64,000 bases of DNA from NCBI GenBank assembly GCA_016209205.1, contig JACQWQ010000010.1:17810-81809 (forward strand), read 5' to 3'. The position numbers were made by a program, and so were the translations under genes. This DNA comes from Chloroflexota bacterium. Its GTDB lineage: Bacteria; Chloroflexota; Anaerolineae; UBA4142; SHND01. The notes under the pieces are model-generated. The model searched no databases, had not been told where the DNA came from, and was given only the letters and a program-made list of their open reading frames with translations. Below, piece by piece: positions 18,117-23,865 of this stretch. Numbering within the stretch: the first letter of the stretch is position 1; each line of letters starts with the position of its first letter.

Positions 18117-19094
18117 ATGAATATGCTTTATCGCACCTTTGGACGCACGGGTTGGCAGATCAGCGAAATCGGGTACGGCATGTGGGGCATGGGCGGCTGG
18201 ACCGAATCGGATGACGCAGAATCGCTGCGCGCACTGCATTTGGCAGTCGAACTCGGCTGTAATTTTTTCGACACCGCGTGGGCGTACGGCGACGGACACA
18301 GCGAGCAGTTATTCAATCAACTCGCCCGCGCGCACCCCGACAAGCTGTTGTATATCGCGACAAAAATCCCGCCCGAGAATCGCATCTGGCCCTCGCGGCG
18401 CGGATTCAAATTGCGGGACGTCTTCCCCGCCGACTATATCAAAGAGTACACCGAAAAGAGTTTGACCAACCTCGGCGTCGAGACGGTTCATGTCCAGCAG
18501 TTTCATGTTTGGGAAGACGATTGGGCAGAGATGGACGAATGGCAGCGCGCGATGGAAGATTTGAAACGCGACGGAAAAATTCAAGCGGTCGGCATCAGCA
18601 TCAACCGTTGGGAACCGTGGAATGGAGTTCGCACGTTGCGCACAGGTAAAATGGATGCAGTGCAAGTGATTTACAACATCTTTGACCAGAATCCCGAAGA
18701 CGAATTGTTCCCCGTGTGCGACGAATTCAACGTCGGCGTCATCGCACGCGTACCTTTCGACGAAGGCACGTTGACCGGCACGCTTACCAAAGATTCCAAA
18801 TGGGCACAAGGCGATTGGCGCAACACCTATTTCGTTCCCGAAAATCTGAACGCGTCGGTTGACCGCGCTGAAGCATTGCGCCCGCTGATTCCCGCTGGCG
18901 TGACCATGGCTGAAATGGCGCTGCGTTGGATTTTGGCGAACAGAACGGTTTCAACCATTATTCCCGGCATGCGCAAAGAAAAAAATGTGCGCGCCAACAT
19001 CGCGACCAGCGATGGAGTTTTGCTCTCTGACGACCTCATGCGCGAATTGAAAAAACATCGTTGGGATCGCATCCCCACCGAGTGGTCGCAATGA
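18117..19094 (+). CDS. Aldo/keto reductase
   Basis: 325 residues with the AKR barrel signatures: FFDTAWAYGDGHSEQLF (catalytic Asp and Tyr), ATKIPP (Lys position), HVQQFHVWEDDWAE (His position), and a C-terminal NADPH-binding STIIPGMRKEKNVRANI. Such enzymes reduce carbonyls with NADPH; the substrate is unknown. ATG 18117 has GAGGGAG at 18104-18110. The stop overlaps, as ATGA, the start of the downstream protoglobin fragment, so the original operon was AKR-protoglobin-Rieske. Confidence 0.85.
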   Translation: MNMLYRTFGRTGWQISEIGYGMWGMGGWTESDDAESLRALHLAVELGCNFFDTAWAYGDGHSEQLFNQLARAHPDKLLYIATKIPPENRIWPSRRGFKLRDVFPADYIKEYTEKSLTNLGVETVHVQQFHVWEDDWAEMDEWQRAMEDLKRDGKIQAVGISINRWEPWNGVRTLRTGKMDAVQVIYNIFDQNPEDELFPVCDEFNVGVIARVPFDEGTLTGTLTKDSKWAQGDWRNTYFVPENLNASVDRAEALRPLIPAGVTMAEMALRWILANRTVSTIIPGMRKEKNVRANIATSDGVLLSDDLMRELKKHRWDRIPTEWSQ

Positions 19095-19348
19095 AAGCAA
19101 TGGAACAAAAATTTGATCAAAACACGACCGCGAAATGCGGCGCGCCCGATTCAGGCAAATACTTTCGCTACATGCCAGAATTCGTCGGTTTTACCGCCGA
19201 AGACGAGCAAGCCATCGTCCAAACCAAAGCGATTCTTGAAAAACAGCAGTTTCCCTCGAATTACATCCCGCGCCCGCCGTGCAAAAAACGAAAATCGTCA
19301 CCATCGCGCGTGCGGACGATATTCAGGAAGGCGAGCGTAAAATTGTGA
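19091..19348 (+). pseudogene. Protoglobin (globin-coupled-sensor type) N-terminal fragment
   Basis: About 55 residues from ATG 19091 (KYFRYMPEFVGFTAEDEQAIVQTKAILEK) match the N-terminus of protoglobin-domain proteins, where the Z/A helices come before the haem pocket. From about 19245 the frame loses similarity and becomes out-of-frame Rieske sequence. A full protoglobin is about 190 residues, so roughly two thirds, including the proximal histidine, is missing. The ATGA overlap with the AKR stop indicates it was once a proper operon gene. Confidence 0.55.
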
Positions 19349-19575
19349 ACGTGGACGGCATTTCGATTGGCATGTTTCACCACAACGGAAATTGGTACGC
19401 GCTGCGTAACAGCTGCCTCCATCGCGGCGGTCCTGTGTGCACGGGCAAACTCGAAGGTGACACGCTCACCTGTCCCTGGCACGGCTTTCAATACGACGTG
19501 CGCGACGGACATCTCATCGTTGACCCCAAATCACGTCTCGACACGTTCAAGGTCAGGTTAGAGATACCACAATAA
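19279..19575 (+). CDS. Rieske [2Fe-2S] ferredoxin-like protein
   Basis: 98 residues with both cluster-binding motifs: CLHRGG (Cys-x-His) and CPWHGFQYD (Cys-x2-His). This is the length of stand-alone Rieske ferredoxins that serve oxygenases or reductases, or nitrite-reductase small subunits. The GTG at 19279 has no good ribosome site, and the truncated protoglobin overlaps it in another frame, so it probably lost its native upstream signals in the same deletion. Confidence 0.85.
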   Translation: MQKTKIVTIARADDIQEGERKIVNVDGISIGMFHHNGNWYALRNSCLHRGGPVCTGKLEGDTLTCPWHGFQYDVRDGHLIVDPKSRLDTFKVRLEIPQ

Positions 19576-19615: not shown

Positions 19616-19620
19616 TATTT

Positions 19621-19678
19621 GTAGTATAGCCCCTTGTGGGCGTTATAGCCGGATGACGCGCACAAGGCGCTATACTAC
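19621..19678. repeat. REP-like palindrome, transposase 3' side
   Basis: GTAGTATAGCCCCTTGTGGG on the left and CGCACAAGGCGCTATACTAC on the right pair with each other. The transposase stop codon (CTA on this strand, 19675-19677) lies in the outer end. Confidence 0.85.
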
Positions 19679-20160
19679 AACGGCAACGGATTCATCAACC
19701 CGCTCCATTTCCAATCCTCACGCTTTGTCACCAAACCCTTGCGCACCGGATTATCTAAAATGTATTCCGAAATCGCGCCTAAACTTTCTTCGCTCCGCAC
19801 AATATGGTCAAAATAACGCGGCTGCCACAATTTTCCTTGACAGCCAAATTTCCAACTCGTGTTCGTCGCCTTGCCCTTGTATTGGTCGGTGAACGTCAGC
19901 GCGGAAATTCCATCTACGCGCGGGCTGACCAAAAAATGCAGATGGTCAGGCATCAAGCAGTATGTATAAACATTACACCGTTGACGCTCTTGCTCCTCAC
20001 GCAATAAATCAATCAATGCATCATTCAAATCATCGCGGCAAAACGGCACATGATTTATGTAAGCGCGAATCGTCATGAAGTAAACGCGCCATGCAAATGT
20101 GTATTCAATAGGGTCAAGCCGTTGATTTTGGACAGGGCGATATGGTTTATTCCACGGCAT
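19675..20160 (-). mobile_element. REP-associated tyrosine transposase (RAYT, Y1/HUH)
   Basis: 161 residues of the TnpA_REP type. It has the HUH motif in LMPDHLHFLVSP and the tyrosine region WQPRYFDHIVRSEESLGAISEYILDNPVRKGLV. RAYTs are single-copy HUH endonucleases that recognise REP hairpins and are thought to have spread them. It lies between two REP-like palindromes with the same ends, and a third copy is at 5.2-5.6 kb. It looks intact. Confidence 0.9.
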
Positions 20161-20170
20161 AATGTTTGAG

Positions 20171-20271
20171 TAGTAAAGCGCCTCGTGTGCGTTGTCTGTT
20201 CGTGCGCGTTGTCTGTACGCGTCGTTTATTCGCGTTTGCCCATACCAACGCCCACAAGGGGCTATACTACA
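20171..20271. repeat. REP-like palindrome, transposase 5' side
   Basis: GTAGTAAAGCGCCTCGTGTG at 20171 and CCCACAAGGGGCTATACTAC ending at about 20270 are the two ends, with CGTGCGCGTTGTCTG-type material in the middle. One arm carries GCGCCTCGTG and the other CCCCTTGTGG, as in the other two copies. Confidence 0.8.
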
Positions 20272-20275
20272 AAAT

Positions 20276-20352
20276 CTATTTCTTCCCCAACAGTCCCCTC
20301 AGCAAAATTATCGCGCCCTTTTTATCTAACGGCTCATTATTGTTCCCGAAGC
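20276..20352 (-). pseudogene. Diverged copy of the MrfA-type helicase C-terminus
   Basis: Read on the minus strand this gives FGNNNEPLDKKGAIILLRGLLGKK and a TAG stop. The full helicase ends CGNNNEPLDKRGAVILLRGLLG. The DNA match to 21580-21650 is about 80 percent over ~68 bases, with several synonymous changes. It begins immediately after the DarT-DarG stop. It is either the old gene end left after insertion or a scrap of a replaced homologue. Confidence 0.8.
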
Positions 20353-20355
20353 GTG

Positions 20356-21525
20356 TCAAGGCTTTAGCAAAAATTGTTTGGTGAGTGCTGTCGGCAGAAT
20401 TTTCTTCTCTGCTGGCAGATAGACCTCAACTGGAATCCCGAGCCGAGCAAGATAACGACACATTAATGGACCAACTTGTTCCCACTCTAGCCCCCCAAGT
20501 CCACACCCCAAGGCGGGAACGGCAAGGGACTTGATTGCAAGATCCGCAGCATTCTCTACAAGCCACTCCAAACCTTTTTCGATTCCCACAATATCCGACT
20601 GCTCTCGCCAATGATTTTTGGTAGGAAACAAAAGAAACCATGTTTCCAAATTGCCGTTGGATTCCAAAGATGGCTCCTCTGCCAGCTCTTGTTCTAAAGA
20701 CGATTCACGCTTGTACAAATAAGGTCTCCCCATTTTCAGCGTCTGATCCCGACACAAGTCTTGATAAAATACATAGACATCAGGAAATTGATACTTGGCG
20801 CGCGATGCAAGTCCTTTGCCCATAACCCCAACACAGTTAACGCTAATAGTTAAGGTTTGCATCCGGGAAAAGAACATGTCGCCCTCAATAATAGAAATGC
20901 GATCAGTCAATGCAATTCTTTGCGCTGGCTGGAAGAACAATGATAGCGCGGGAATCACTTCGATTTTTCCGTGGGGCAAAGTGGATTTGAGTTTTTCCGC
21001 AACAGTGTGCTTTGATACATAAATTCCATCAATAGAATCGGGAGTAACAACATCAGGTACCAGACATTCAGCCATCATTCTTCGCTTGGAACCATCTTCC
21101 TTTTTCCACCAATCGCTATTCAACACATCTAACATTTCCGCTACAGCTTGGCGTCCCTCGCGCGGATGCAAAATCTCGGACTCGGAATGTGCTGCATTCC
21201 CTGTGGTAATATAAATATCAGGGCGCTTTAGAATATCTTGACGGACAGCGACTATTGCAATTTCATCCAGTCCTTTTTCATTCACGACTTGGTAAAGCAT
21301 TGCGTTTCGCGGTTGAAAGTACAAGTTCGCAAAACTCCACAGGCTTCTCCCATCAGGGGTCAAACGGTTACGGCGATTTGCTACGATTCCCTCATTGTAA
21401 ATCCGCGTAAAGGGAACATTTTCCTTTTCAACAATCTCGTGAGACAAGATACCCCGATTCAATATTGAGGATATATTGTTTATGTGTGTGATGTAATACA
21501 AGCCCTTCATTCTTCGGTGTGCCAT
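20356..21525 (-). CDS. DarT-DarG fusion: DNA ADP-ribosyltransferase plus macrodomain
   Basis: 389 residues. Residues 1-~200 are a DarT (DUF4433) domain: YYITHINNISSILNRGI at 10-26, NRRNRLTPDGRS at 50-61, YFQPRNAMLY at 69-78, and KRRMMAECLVPD at 147-158, whose Glu153 matches the catalytic glutamate. Residues ~208-375 are a DarG-type macrodomain: SVNCVGVMGKGLASRAK at 228-244, FPTKNHWREQS at 300-310 and PALGCGLGGLEWE at 337-349. DarT adds ADP-ribose to thymidine in ssDNA; DarG removes it. They are normally two genes; here one chain carries toxin and antitoxin. Base composition is AT-richer than its neighbours. Confidence 0.85.
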   Translation of the reverse strand: MAHRRMKGLYYITHINNISSILNRGILSHEIVEKENVPFTRIYNEGIVANRRNRLTPDGRSLWSFANLYFQPRNAMLYQVVNEKGLDEIAIVAVRQDILKRPDIYITTGNAAHSESEILHPREGRQAVAEMLDVLNSDWWKKEDGSKRRMMAECLVPDVVTPDSIDGIYVSKHTVAEKLKSTLPHGKIEVIPALSLFFQPAQRIALTDRISIIEGDMFFSRMQTLTISVNCVGVMGKGLASRAKYQFPDVYVFYQDLCRDQTLKMGRPYLYKRESSLEQELAEEPSLESNGNLETWFLLFPTKNHWREQSDIVGIEKGLEWLVENAADLAIKSLAVPALGCGLGGLEWEQVGPLMCRYLARLGIPVEVYLPAEKKILPTALTKQFLLKP

Positions 21526-21579: not shown

Positions 21580-23865
21580 TTATCCCAACAACCCTCTCAA
21601 CAAAATCACCGCGCCTCTCTTATCCAACGGCTCATTATTATTCCCGCATTTCGGCGATTGCACGCACGACGGACAGCCGAATTCGCACGGGCATTGTTCA
21701 ATCGTTTCCAACGTCGCCTTCCACAACGATTCCAATAACGCGAATGCTTTTTCCGTGATGCCGATGCCGCCGGGAAAACCGTCGTAAATAAAAATTTGCG
21801 GCTTGCCCGTGTCGGGATGAATCAAAATCGAAAGCCCGCCAATGTCCCAACGGTCGCACATCGCAAACAACGGCAAGAGACCAATGCACGCGTGTTCCGC
21901 CGCGTGCAGCGAACCCGCAAGGTCGCAGCCCGCACGACTCAAGTCGTGACTACACTTTTCGGGAATGTCCCACCACACCGCTTTGGTATCAAACAACTGC
22001 GGCGGATAATCCAAATCCACCGTCGCTAAAACTTCTTCGGTGAATTGACGCTTGCGCCGATAGCCGACGAGTTGTTCCGACACGCGCACGTCGCCGTAGT
22101 ACGCGAGAGTATTCCCCACCTCGCGTTCGCGCAGGGATTTCAAAATGCGCGTCTCGCCGTTCTCGCGCACTTCGGTGTAATAATCCACGTCCACGGGCTT
22201 GCAATACGCCGCGCCCGCTTCCAAATCCAATTTCGTCACGAGATACGATTCGCCTTGATGCAAATAAATCGCGCCTTCGTAGCAGCGCTGCATCGCGGTC
22301 GTCGCTTCGATTTCTTCCAACGTCTTGAAATTATTCTTCACGTCTACGAGCGAAACAATTTTGTCCGACACCGAACGAATGTTGACCTGTTCCGCCGGAT
22401 AGCCGAGTCCTTGAAAATACCACTGGTCGTTGCGATATTCGAGCGTGTGGTTTCGCTCCAACTTAATCATTGCTTCGACAAAACCGGGGCCGAACAAATC
22501 TTCGTCCGCATTCGTCAACGGCAATTCGTACGCCGCGCACGGCAAATGTTTTTCCAAAATGTATGGATTGTCGGGATAAATCAACGCGTGCTCGACGGGT
22601 TTCGCAAACAACACTTCGGGATGGCGCATGAAAAATTGATTCAGCGGATCGTCCATGCCGACGAGAATCGAAAGCGCGTCGCGCGTGCCGCGTCCCGAAC
22701 GCCCCACCTGCTGCCACAACGACGCGATAGTGCCGGGAAAACCGACGACCACTGTCGCGTCGAGATGCCCCACGTCAATGCCCAATTCCAACGCGTTCGT
22801 CGCCGTCACACCGCGCAATTTTCCCGAAAACAAATCGCGCTCAATCGCGCGGCGTTCGTCGGCGAGGTAGCCCGCGCGGTACGATTTCACCGTGTTTATC
22901 AATTCGGGGTCGGTGCGTTTCAAATTATCGCGTGCGTAGAGCAAAACCAATTCCGCGAGTTTGCGCGCCCGCACGAATGTAATGTTTCGCAGCCCCGCGC
23001 GCACCAGCGACGCAAACAAATGCGCGGCTTCGGAGTTGGGACTGCGCCGCGTCGTGCGCGTCTTGTCAATGAACGGCGGATTCCACAACGCGAATTCGCG
23101 CTGCCCGCGCGGCGCGCCATCTTCGGCAATCACTTTGGCGCGACGGCCCGACAAACGATGCACATGCTCGCCCGGATTCGCAATCGTCGCCGAACAAAAA
23201 ATAAATTGCGGATTCGCGGAATAGTATTCGCACAAACGGCGGAGTCGGCGCAGCACGCACGCGACCTGCGAACCGAACACGCCGCGATAAATGTGCGCTT
23301 CGTCAATGACGATGTATTTCAAATTCGCGATGAAATCCGCCCACAGCGAATGATTCGGCAAAATGCCGACGGATAACATGTCGGGATTGGTGAGGATGAT
23401 GTTGCCCCGCTTGCGTAATTTTGTCCGCGCTTCGCGTTTCGTGTCGCCGTCGTACGTGTCGAAAACGATTTGCTTGTTCGTCTCCAACACGTTCGTTAAT
23501 TCGTCCAACGCGCGCAGTTGGTCTTGCGCTAATGCTTTGGTGGGAAACAAATACAATGCGCGGGAACGCGGCGCATCGAGGATCGCTTCCAGAACGGGCA
23601 CGTTGTAGCACAGCGTCTTGCCCGATGAGGTGCCCGTGGCGACGACGACGTCATTTCCCTCGCGCACATAATTGATCGCGTGCGCCTGGTGCGAAAAGAA
23701 TTTTTCGATCCCGTTTTGTTTCAGCGCGCGCAAGAGCGCAGGATGCAGTGGTTGCGCCAGCTGCGCGTATTTGGCGGGACGCGGCGCAAGATGTTCCAGG
23801 TGGATGATTTGGTTGGCGTAATGTTTTTCGGAACGGAGGGAAGTCAGGAATTGAGAAGGAGTCAT
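21580..23865 (-). CDS. DEAD/DEAH helicase with DUF1998 zinc domain (YprA/MrfA type)
   Basis: 761 residues. Walker A ATGTSSGKT is at 76-84, VIDEAHIYRGVFGSQ is the DEAH box, SATIANPGEH is motif III, and TNALELGIDVGHLDATVVVGFPG and QQVGRSGRG are motifs V and VI. The C-terminal DUF1998 region ends with a four-cysteine cluster (CPCEFGCPSCVQSPKCGNNN). Bacillus MrfA is a 3'-5' DNA helicase needed for mitomycin C lesion repair, and the length agrees. The last 23 codons are duplicated, diverged, beyond the DarT-DarG gene. Confidence 0.9.
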   Translation of the reverse strand: MTPSQFLTSLRSEKHYANQIIHLEHLAPRPAKYAQLAQPLHPALLRALKQNGIEKFFSHQAHAINYVREGNDVVVATGTSSGKTLCYNVPVLEAILDAPRSRALYLFPTKALAQDQLRALDELTNVLETNKQIVFDTYDGDTKREARTKLRKRGNIILTNPDMLSVGILPNHSLWADFIANLKYIVIDEAHIYRGVFGSQVACVLRRLRRLCEYYSANPQFIFCSATIANPGEHVHRLSGRRAKVIAEDGAPRGQREFALWNPPFIDKTRTTRRSPNSEAAHLFASLVRAGLRNITFVRARKLAELVLLYARDNLKRTDPELINTVKSYRAGYLADERRAIERDLFSGKLRGVTATNALELGIDVGHLDATVVVGFPGTIASLWQQVGRSGRGTRDALSILVGMDDPLNQFFMRHPEVLFAKPVEHALIYPDNPYILEKHLPCAAYELPLTNADEDLFGPGFVEAMIKLERNHTLEYRNDQWYFQGLGYPAEQVNIRSVSDKIVSLVDVKNNFKTLEEIEATTAMQRCYEGAIYLHQGESYLVTKLDLEAGAAYCKPVDVDYYTEVRENGETRILKSLREREVGNTLAYYGDVRVSEQLVGYRRKRQFTEEVLATVDLDYPPQLFDTKAVWWDIPEKCSHDLSRAGCDLAGSLHAAEHACIGLLPLFAMCDRWDIGGLSILIHPDTGKPQIFIYDGFPGGIGITEKAFALLESLWKATLETIEQCPCEFGCPSCVQSPKCGNNNEPLDKRGAVILLRGLLG

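Follow-up and report, generated by a model that had tools for sequence, protein, structure and literature searches.

A single-chain DarT-macrodomain protein in a Chloroflexota genome belongs to a widespread clade of fused DarTG proteins

How can a DNA-modifying toxin be held in check when its antitoxin is part of the same polypeptide? In two-gene DarTG2 systems the antitoxin acts in two ways: its macrodomain hydrolyses the DNA adduct, and its C-terminal domain sequesters DarT by mimicking single-stranded DNA (PMC7003065, PMC11481870). What triggers DarTG upon infection is described as unknown (PMC11481870). The question is raised by a gene in the window, i.e. the whole stretch of 64,000 nucleotides analyzed here from a Chloroflexota bacterium (contig JACQWQ010000010.1). 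From the sequence alone, a first-pass annotation had recognized a DarT and a DarG macrodomain in one protein, and had stated that in known systems the two are separate.

One open reading frame carries a DarT domain and a DarG-type macrodomain

The gene (20356..21525) lies on the minus strand, which the first-pass annotation had not given; the coordinates of its parts below all refer to this strand. It runs from an ATG start to a stop codon and encodes 389 aa in one open frame, with zero internal stops. The first half, residues 1–200 (20926..21525), is a DarT ADP-ribosyltransferase domain: Pfam assigns residues 10–187 to PF14487 (E 1.6e-42; 146 bits for a curated cut-off of 22.5), the PADLOC DarT profile matches at 7.6e-33, and a Thermus DarT structure is matched as well. 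The second half, residues 207–389 (20359..20907), is a DarG-type macrodomain, with a Pfam Macro match at residues 301–352 (E 8.6e-8), a PADLOC DarG match at 2.6e-46, an NCBIfam DarG match and a structure match. The NCBIfam matches are significant and below the equivalog cut-offs: 148 bits against 250 for DarG, and 82 bits against 150 for DarT, a cut-off that refers to two-gene DarT. The HMM scan places the halves in DarT and in DarG/Macro. All the motifs on which the first reading was based occur in the ORF, on the DarT side HINN, NRRNR, PRNAMLY and MMAECLVPD (with E153), on the macrodomain side NCVGVMGKGLA, FPTKNHW and GCGLGGLEW. We are thus close to certain that the ORF is a DarT-macrodomain fusion, and this part of the first-pass annotation holds on the grounds of the single frame, Pfam, PADLOC and a full-length structural match described below.

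The match to DarG is partial. It is confined to positions 2–149 of 329 in the PADLOC profile and to positions 1–152 of 338 in the NCBIfam profile. By these two profiles there is no C-terminal DarT-binding (ssDNA-mimic) domain of DarG, the chain stopping after the macrodomain. A NADAR eraser, the feature of DarTG1, was not found with Pfam or PADLOC; the macrodomain stands in its place. Instead of the two adjacent separate genes of a DarTG toxin-antitoxin system, the locus holds a single ORF.

The architecture is that of a crystallized single chain

Among PDB chains, phmmer matches residues 5–387 of the query to residues 22–404 of the 406-aa chain of 7OMU (E 6e-143). This entry, entitled ‘Thermosipho africanus DarTG in complex with ADP-ribose’, was released in June 2021. 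An AlphaFold2 model built from seven homologues (mean pLDDT 82, pTM 0.77) superimposes on 7OMU over 375 residues with a Z of 46.5 and an rmsd of 1.8, at about 57–58% identity. In the model, residues 284–292, which overlap an insert of the macrodomain, have a pLDDT below 50. The next structures matched after 7OMU cover one domain each, e.g. Thermus DarT (Z 21.5) and the T. aquaticus DarG macrodomain (Z 22.5). As the match to 7OMU covers both domains together, model and crystal agree in how the domains are placed relative to each other. Structure prediction bears out the two-domain reading. The claim that DarT and DarG are separate in known systems does not stand, since 7OMU is a natural single chain, public since 2021. 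The single-chain architecture was thus already known, and the window protein joins that clade.

The crystallized chain has Ala at the position of E153, where the natural gene of a Thermosipho metagenome (L036) encodes Glu. Judging from this difference, the transferase was presumably put out of action for expression.

Fused proteins form one clade spread over many phyla

We scanned one genome per species of the GTDB bacteria and archaea and kept 80 of 119 relatives. In these 80, together with the relatives of the window's genome, the whole arrangement is found in one frame at 86 loci, 82 of them distinct, with lengths of 387–402 aa once trimmed to the query start. Where the phylum is named, 29 fused genes belong to Chloroflexota, 18 to Cyanobacteriota, 11 to Poribacteria and 3 to Planctomycetota, and ten further phyla have one each. 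The survey that the first-pass annotation had called for thus reveals a whole clade of fused proteins in more than ten phyla, which again contradicts the supposed separateness of the two partners. In the window's phylum a DarT domain is present in 45 of 301 sampled genomes; in the best 30 of those loci ten are of the fused type (one with a stop codon) and the remainder are two-gene. The window's genus has darTG in two of six genomes.

Could two separate genes have been joined by an assembly or annotation error? The window does come from a draft genome of 279 contigs. Against this stand the 86 one-frame loci, some of them on complete chromosomes (CP073341, OY282381 and OY282386), and the crystallized single chain of 7OMU. 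The recurrence of the 389-aa arrangement in one frame rules out both chance and an assembly join, and we regard an artefact as practically inconceivable. The breadth of the clade, with 82 distinct genes and Chloroflexota, Cyanobacteriota and Poribacteria as the richest phyla, indicates a lasting solution that extends beyond one thermophile.

Spread on plasmids or phages was considered and rejected. Among the matches listed, plasmid matches across most of the query are two-gene systems, and the phage record MT837167, which seemed a single locus, proved to be two ORFs. A full-length fused gene is present on one viral contig (L089).

In maximum-likelihood trees all the fused proteins lie beyond one branch, both for the DarT half (support 99/97) and for the macrodomain half (100/99), and each tree gives them a single origin. 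Their sister is a two-gene pair of the window's phylum (L119, genome G301; support 97/92 for DarT and 82/76 for the macrodomain). This pair differs from the fused type by its two adjacent genes and by a DarG that runs about 230 aa beyond the macrodomain; the two-gene DarGs of this phylum are mostly about 345–430 aa long. The tree of fused proteins mixes phyla. The simplest reading is one fusion event with loss of the DarG C-terminal region, followed by spread across phyla.

Several related arrangements were also observed. In an Acidobacteria locus a lone second DarT-like ORF (L049:653-1291, plus strand; 27% identical) lies directly upstream of a fused darTG. At L141:769-2801 and L146:398-2399 an ADP-ribosylglycohydrolase (PF03747, 6.8e-35 and 1e-39) comes immediately after a DarT-domain ORF or overlaps it, DarT being paired there with an ARH-type eraser and not with a macrodomain or NADAR. 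At L144:872-3281 (minus strand) a TIR domain (PF13676, 1.3e-28) is fused to a DarT-like domain and adjoins a DarG-like macrodomain gene.

Catalytic residues are invariant and the first triad position is specific to the clade

In the alignment of fused proteins E153, M151, N230 and K303 are each invariant (82/82), while R51 and R148 are each found in 80 of 82. E153 (21067..21069) is by alignment the ART catalytic Glu, equivalent to E160 of T. aquaticus DarT. R51 (21373..21375) aligns with the arginine of DarT2 that is the proton-abstracting residue (PMC11543638). The catalytic Glu and the equivalent of R51 are present in all 25 separate DarTs. K303 (20617..20619) aligns with K80, which is catalytic in T. 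aquaticus DarG (PMC7003065), and its equivalent is common to separate DarGs. The protein thus has the catalytic Glu and proton-abstracting Arg of a DarT, and a DarG-type macrodomain with its catalytic Lys. With E153, K303 and N230 unchanged throughout the clade, the view that the active sites look intact on both sides proves sound. Over 38 close pairs dN/dS has a median of 0.13 in the DarT half and of 0.09 in the macrodomain half, indicating that both are maintained by purifying selection.

Four features belong to the fused clade only: Y11, an FFxP junction, an insert in the macrodomain and a C-terminal tail. Y11 (21493..21495) occupies the first position of the ARTD [H-Y-E] triad, which reads here Y11-Y69-E153, Y11 being placed by sequence alignment. 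The Tyr is found in 82 of 82 fused proteins (88 of 91 in a larger fused set), whereas 20 of 25 separate DarTs have His at the equivalent position. Since the first triad residue is Tyr and not His, the transferase activity should not be equated with that of DarT2. The inter-domain junction (residues 197–206, 20908..20937) carries the FFxP motif; F197, F198 and P200 occur in at least 95% of fused proteins and are missing or different in separate DarTs. The insert of 15 residues (275–289, 20659..20703) occupies columns that are missing in separate DarGs.

N110 (21196..21198) aligns with the target-base residue, H119 in Thermus DarT2 and N104 in E. coli DarT1. It is Asn in 81 of 82 fused proteins, in 15 of 25 separate DarTs and in M. 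tuberculosis DarT (7yk3), which is described as a thymidine enzyme (PMC11543638). A guanine specificity, deduced from Asn in DarT1 and His in DarT2, was considered and rejected, as Asn is shared by M. tuberculosis DarT and by many DarTs that are paired with a macrodomain; N110 thus gives no reading of base specificity.

darTG sits as a low-GC insertion behind a helicase gene

In the window darTG lies between an upstream MrfA/HRQ1-like helicase gene (21580..23865, minus strand; Pfam DEAD, MZB and WHD_HRQ1) and a Rieske-type gene. Its GC content is 43–46%, against 52–60% in most of the flanking DNA. In the sister genome G002 the helicase and Rieske genes adjoin directly, separated by about 45 bp; G005 has a darTG at the same site as the window. 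A direct repeat edges the gene: the proximal copy (21584..21646) is the 3′ end of the intact helicase gene, and the distal copy (20286..20348, 63 nt, 83% identical to it) encodes the last 23 residues of the helicase at 83%. Its GC content, its presence and absence within the genus, the empty site of G002 and the edge repeats mark darTG as a low-GC insertion where the helicase gene ends. The 63-bp repeats around it are a possible trace of insertion or exchange at this end.

When the window is compared with G005, synonymous differences reach a proportion of 0.78 in darTG but 0.39 in the neighbouring helicase gene; the two copies of darTG thus appear to predate the divergence of the two genomes. 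From this one pair we infer that darTG probably entered the site on two occasions, or else was exchanged. The helicase, which all six genomes of the genus carry, is treated here as genomic context. As an obligatory partner it was rejected: outside the window's genus it adjoins darTG in one other genome only (L004).

Other changes are visible on the Rieske side. Of a protoglobin-Rieske gene (19061–19575, plus strand) two ORF fragments are left, and they lack most of the globin part; the gene is intact in sister genomes, with 326 aa in L002 and 368 aa in L129. The region 19618–20273 holds a transposase of the REP-associated type (Pfam Y1_Tnp; 19675..20160, minus strand) bracketed by near-identical palindromic elements of 25–28 nt.

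A proposed self-erasing enzyme, most likely for defence

The first-pass annotation had argued that a covalent chain cannot be controlled by loss of the antitoxin. This is borne out: the antitoxin is not separate and the sequestering domain is absent, which excludes antitoxin loss as the control. The candidate controls named in that annotation are conformation, cleavage and the NAD/ADP-ribose balance. In EPEC the DarG macrodomain alone prevents DarT toxicity and the K54A mutant does not (PMC7003065). If such a macrodomain suffices when its Lys is intact, a tethered eraser could be enough in the fused chain.

We therefore consider the following mechanism, modelled on the two-gene enzymes. The N-terminal DarT would transfer ADP-ribose from NAD+ onto a base of single-stranded DNA, and the DarG-type macrodomain, tethered in a fixed arrangement, would hydrolyse that adduct. 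In the resting state the eraser would take off the marks of its own DarT half, keeping net modification low with no separate antitoxin. Phage replication, by exposing much single-stranded DNA, might tip the balance so that marks accumulate and replication is blocked; alternatively a phage product might act on the chain, altering its conformation or upsetting the balance. Anti-phage defence, by analogy with two-gene DarTG2, appears the most likely role, and for the whole mechanism, a single-chain DarTG2-type enzyme with self-erasing ADP-ribosylation of single-stranded DNA serving in defence, we see about even chances.

The neighbourhoods of the fused genes speak partly for defence. At L005 the fused gene lies between a type I specificity gene (HsdS) and an EcoEI-type HsdR gene, the position that DarTG2 holds between hsdS and hsdR in a published EPEC island (PMC12255303), and this counts for defence. 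At L022 its neighbours are an MmeI-type methylase fragment on one side and, on the other, an Eco57I methylase with a T5orf172/ResIII helicase after it, and the same DNA-methylase/helicase cluster recurs in related loci. Close neighbours are nevertheless mostly ordinary, non-defence genes, and among the diverse close neighbours of 82 fused genes there is no conserved partner, Eco57I-type methylases being among the commonest with 4 of 82. In five Nostoc-group loci the fused gene lies between the same conserved chromosomal genes, a constant position that fits a resident function as well. One could imagine a writer and an eraser in one chain setting a steady, reversible ADP-ribosylation of DNA that tunes replication or transcription, as proposed for M. 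tuberculosis DarT/DarG. The fixed 1:1 ratio would be more natural in a balanced modifier than in a toxin awaiting the loss of its antitoxin, both halves are under strong purifying selection, and DarT/DarG of M. tuberculosis controls replication and expression (PMC12170906). But the gene is patchy even within the window's genus, the tree mixes phyla, the context is insertion-like with low GC, and several restriction-modification neighbourhoods have an accessory, defence-like character; we hold a resident DNA-marking regulator to be rather unlikely.

The DarT half might also be attenuated or act on another substrate (another base, or RNA), the protein being mainly an eraser or reader of ADP-ribose and Tyr weakening the use of NAD+. 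The invariant Y11 in place of the usual His, the presence of N110 at the base-selecting position and the ability of T. aquaticus DarG to remove ADP-ribose also from uracil in RNA (PMC13036486) are in favour of it. Yet E153, M151, R51 and R148 are kept and the dN/dS of this half is low, Asn at the position of N110 occurs also in M. tuberculosis DarT, described as a thymidine enzyme, and the Glu-to-Ala change in 7OMU looks as if an active toxin had needed disabling. Such an attenuation seems to us improbable, and the defence reading remains the preferred one.

DarG-like macrodomains occur in phages too. Of the matches listed among 245 phage records that match the query, nearly all are over the macrodomain half only, and two phage records (MN871444 and KM044272; L126 and L127) carry free-standing DarG-like macrodomain genes. 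Being limited to the macrodomain half, these matches are candidate counter-defence erasers.

More tentatively, the fused clade may be a functionally separate branch, marked by its single origin, the loss of the sequestering half, the change from His to Tyr, its spread over more than ten phyla and a one-chain switch of conformation or enzymatic balance; we put this forward as a possibility, with doubt. If true, the one-chain switch would be a mode of control without a demonstrated example among DarTG systems. A single chain lacking the sequestering domain is in any case a compact test of whether an eraser alone can restrain a DNA-modifying toxin, and of what tips the balance.

Comparison with known systems

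With the two-gene DarTG2 systems of T. aquaticus, M. tuberculosis and EPEC, the window protein shares the catalytic Glu and Arg, the macrodomain Lys and the co-encoding of toxin and eraser. It differs from them as one chain without the DarG C-terminal domain, by the Tyr of its triad, and by the added FFxP junction, 15-residue macrodomain insert and C-terminal tail. It has the DarT fold of DarTG1 (DarT1-NADAR) and, like it, carries Asn where the target base is contacted, but the eraser of DarTG1 is a NADAR domain and that of the window protein a macrodomain.

In its logic the protein resembles a fused toxin-antitoxin of the CapRel type: toxin and antitoxin are in one chain, and antitoxin loss is impossible as a control. 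Chemistry and fold are unrelated, and the analogy is one of logic only. PMC11481870 cites as a precedent a fused toxin-antitoxin that a phage protein activates by binding to it directly.

The closest known relative is Thermosipho africanus DarTG (7OMU), like the window protein a single-chain DarT-macrodomain enzyme over its full length, with insert, junction and tail alike in the alignment. It differs in coming from a thermophile, in an identity limited to the value given above, and in the Ala that replaces the catalytic Glu in the crystallized chain.
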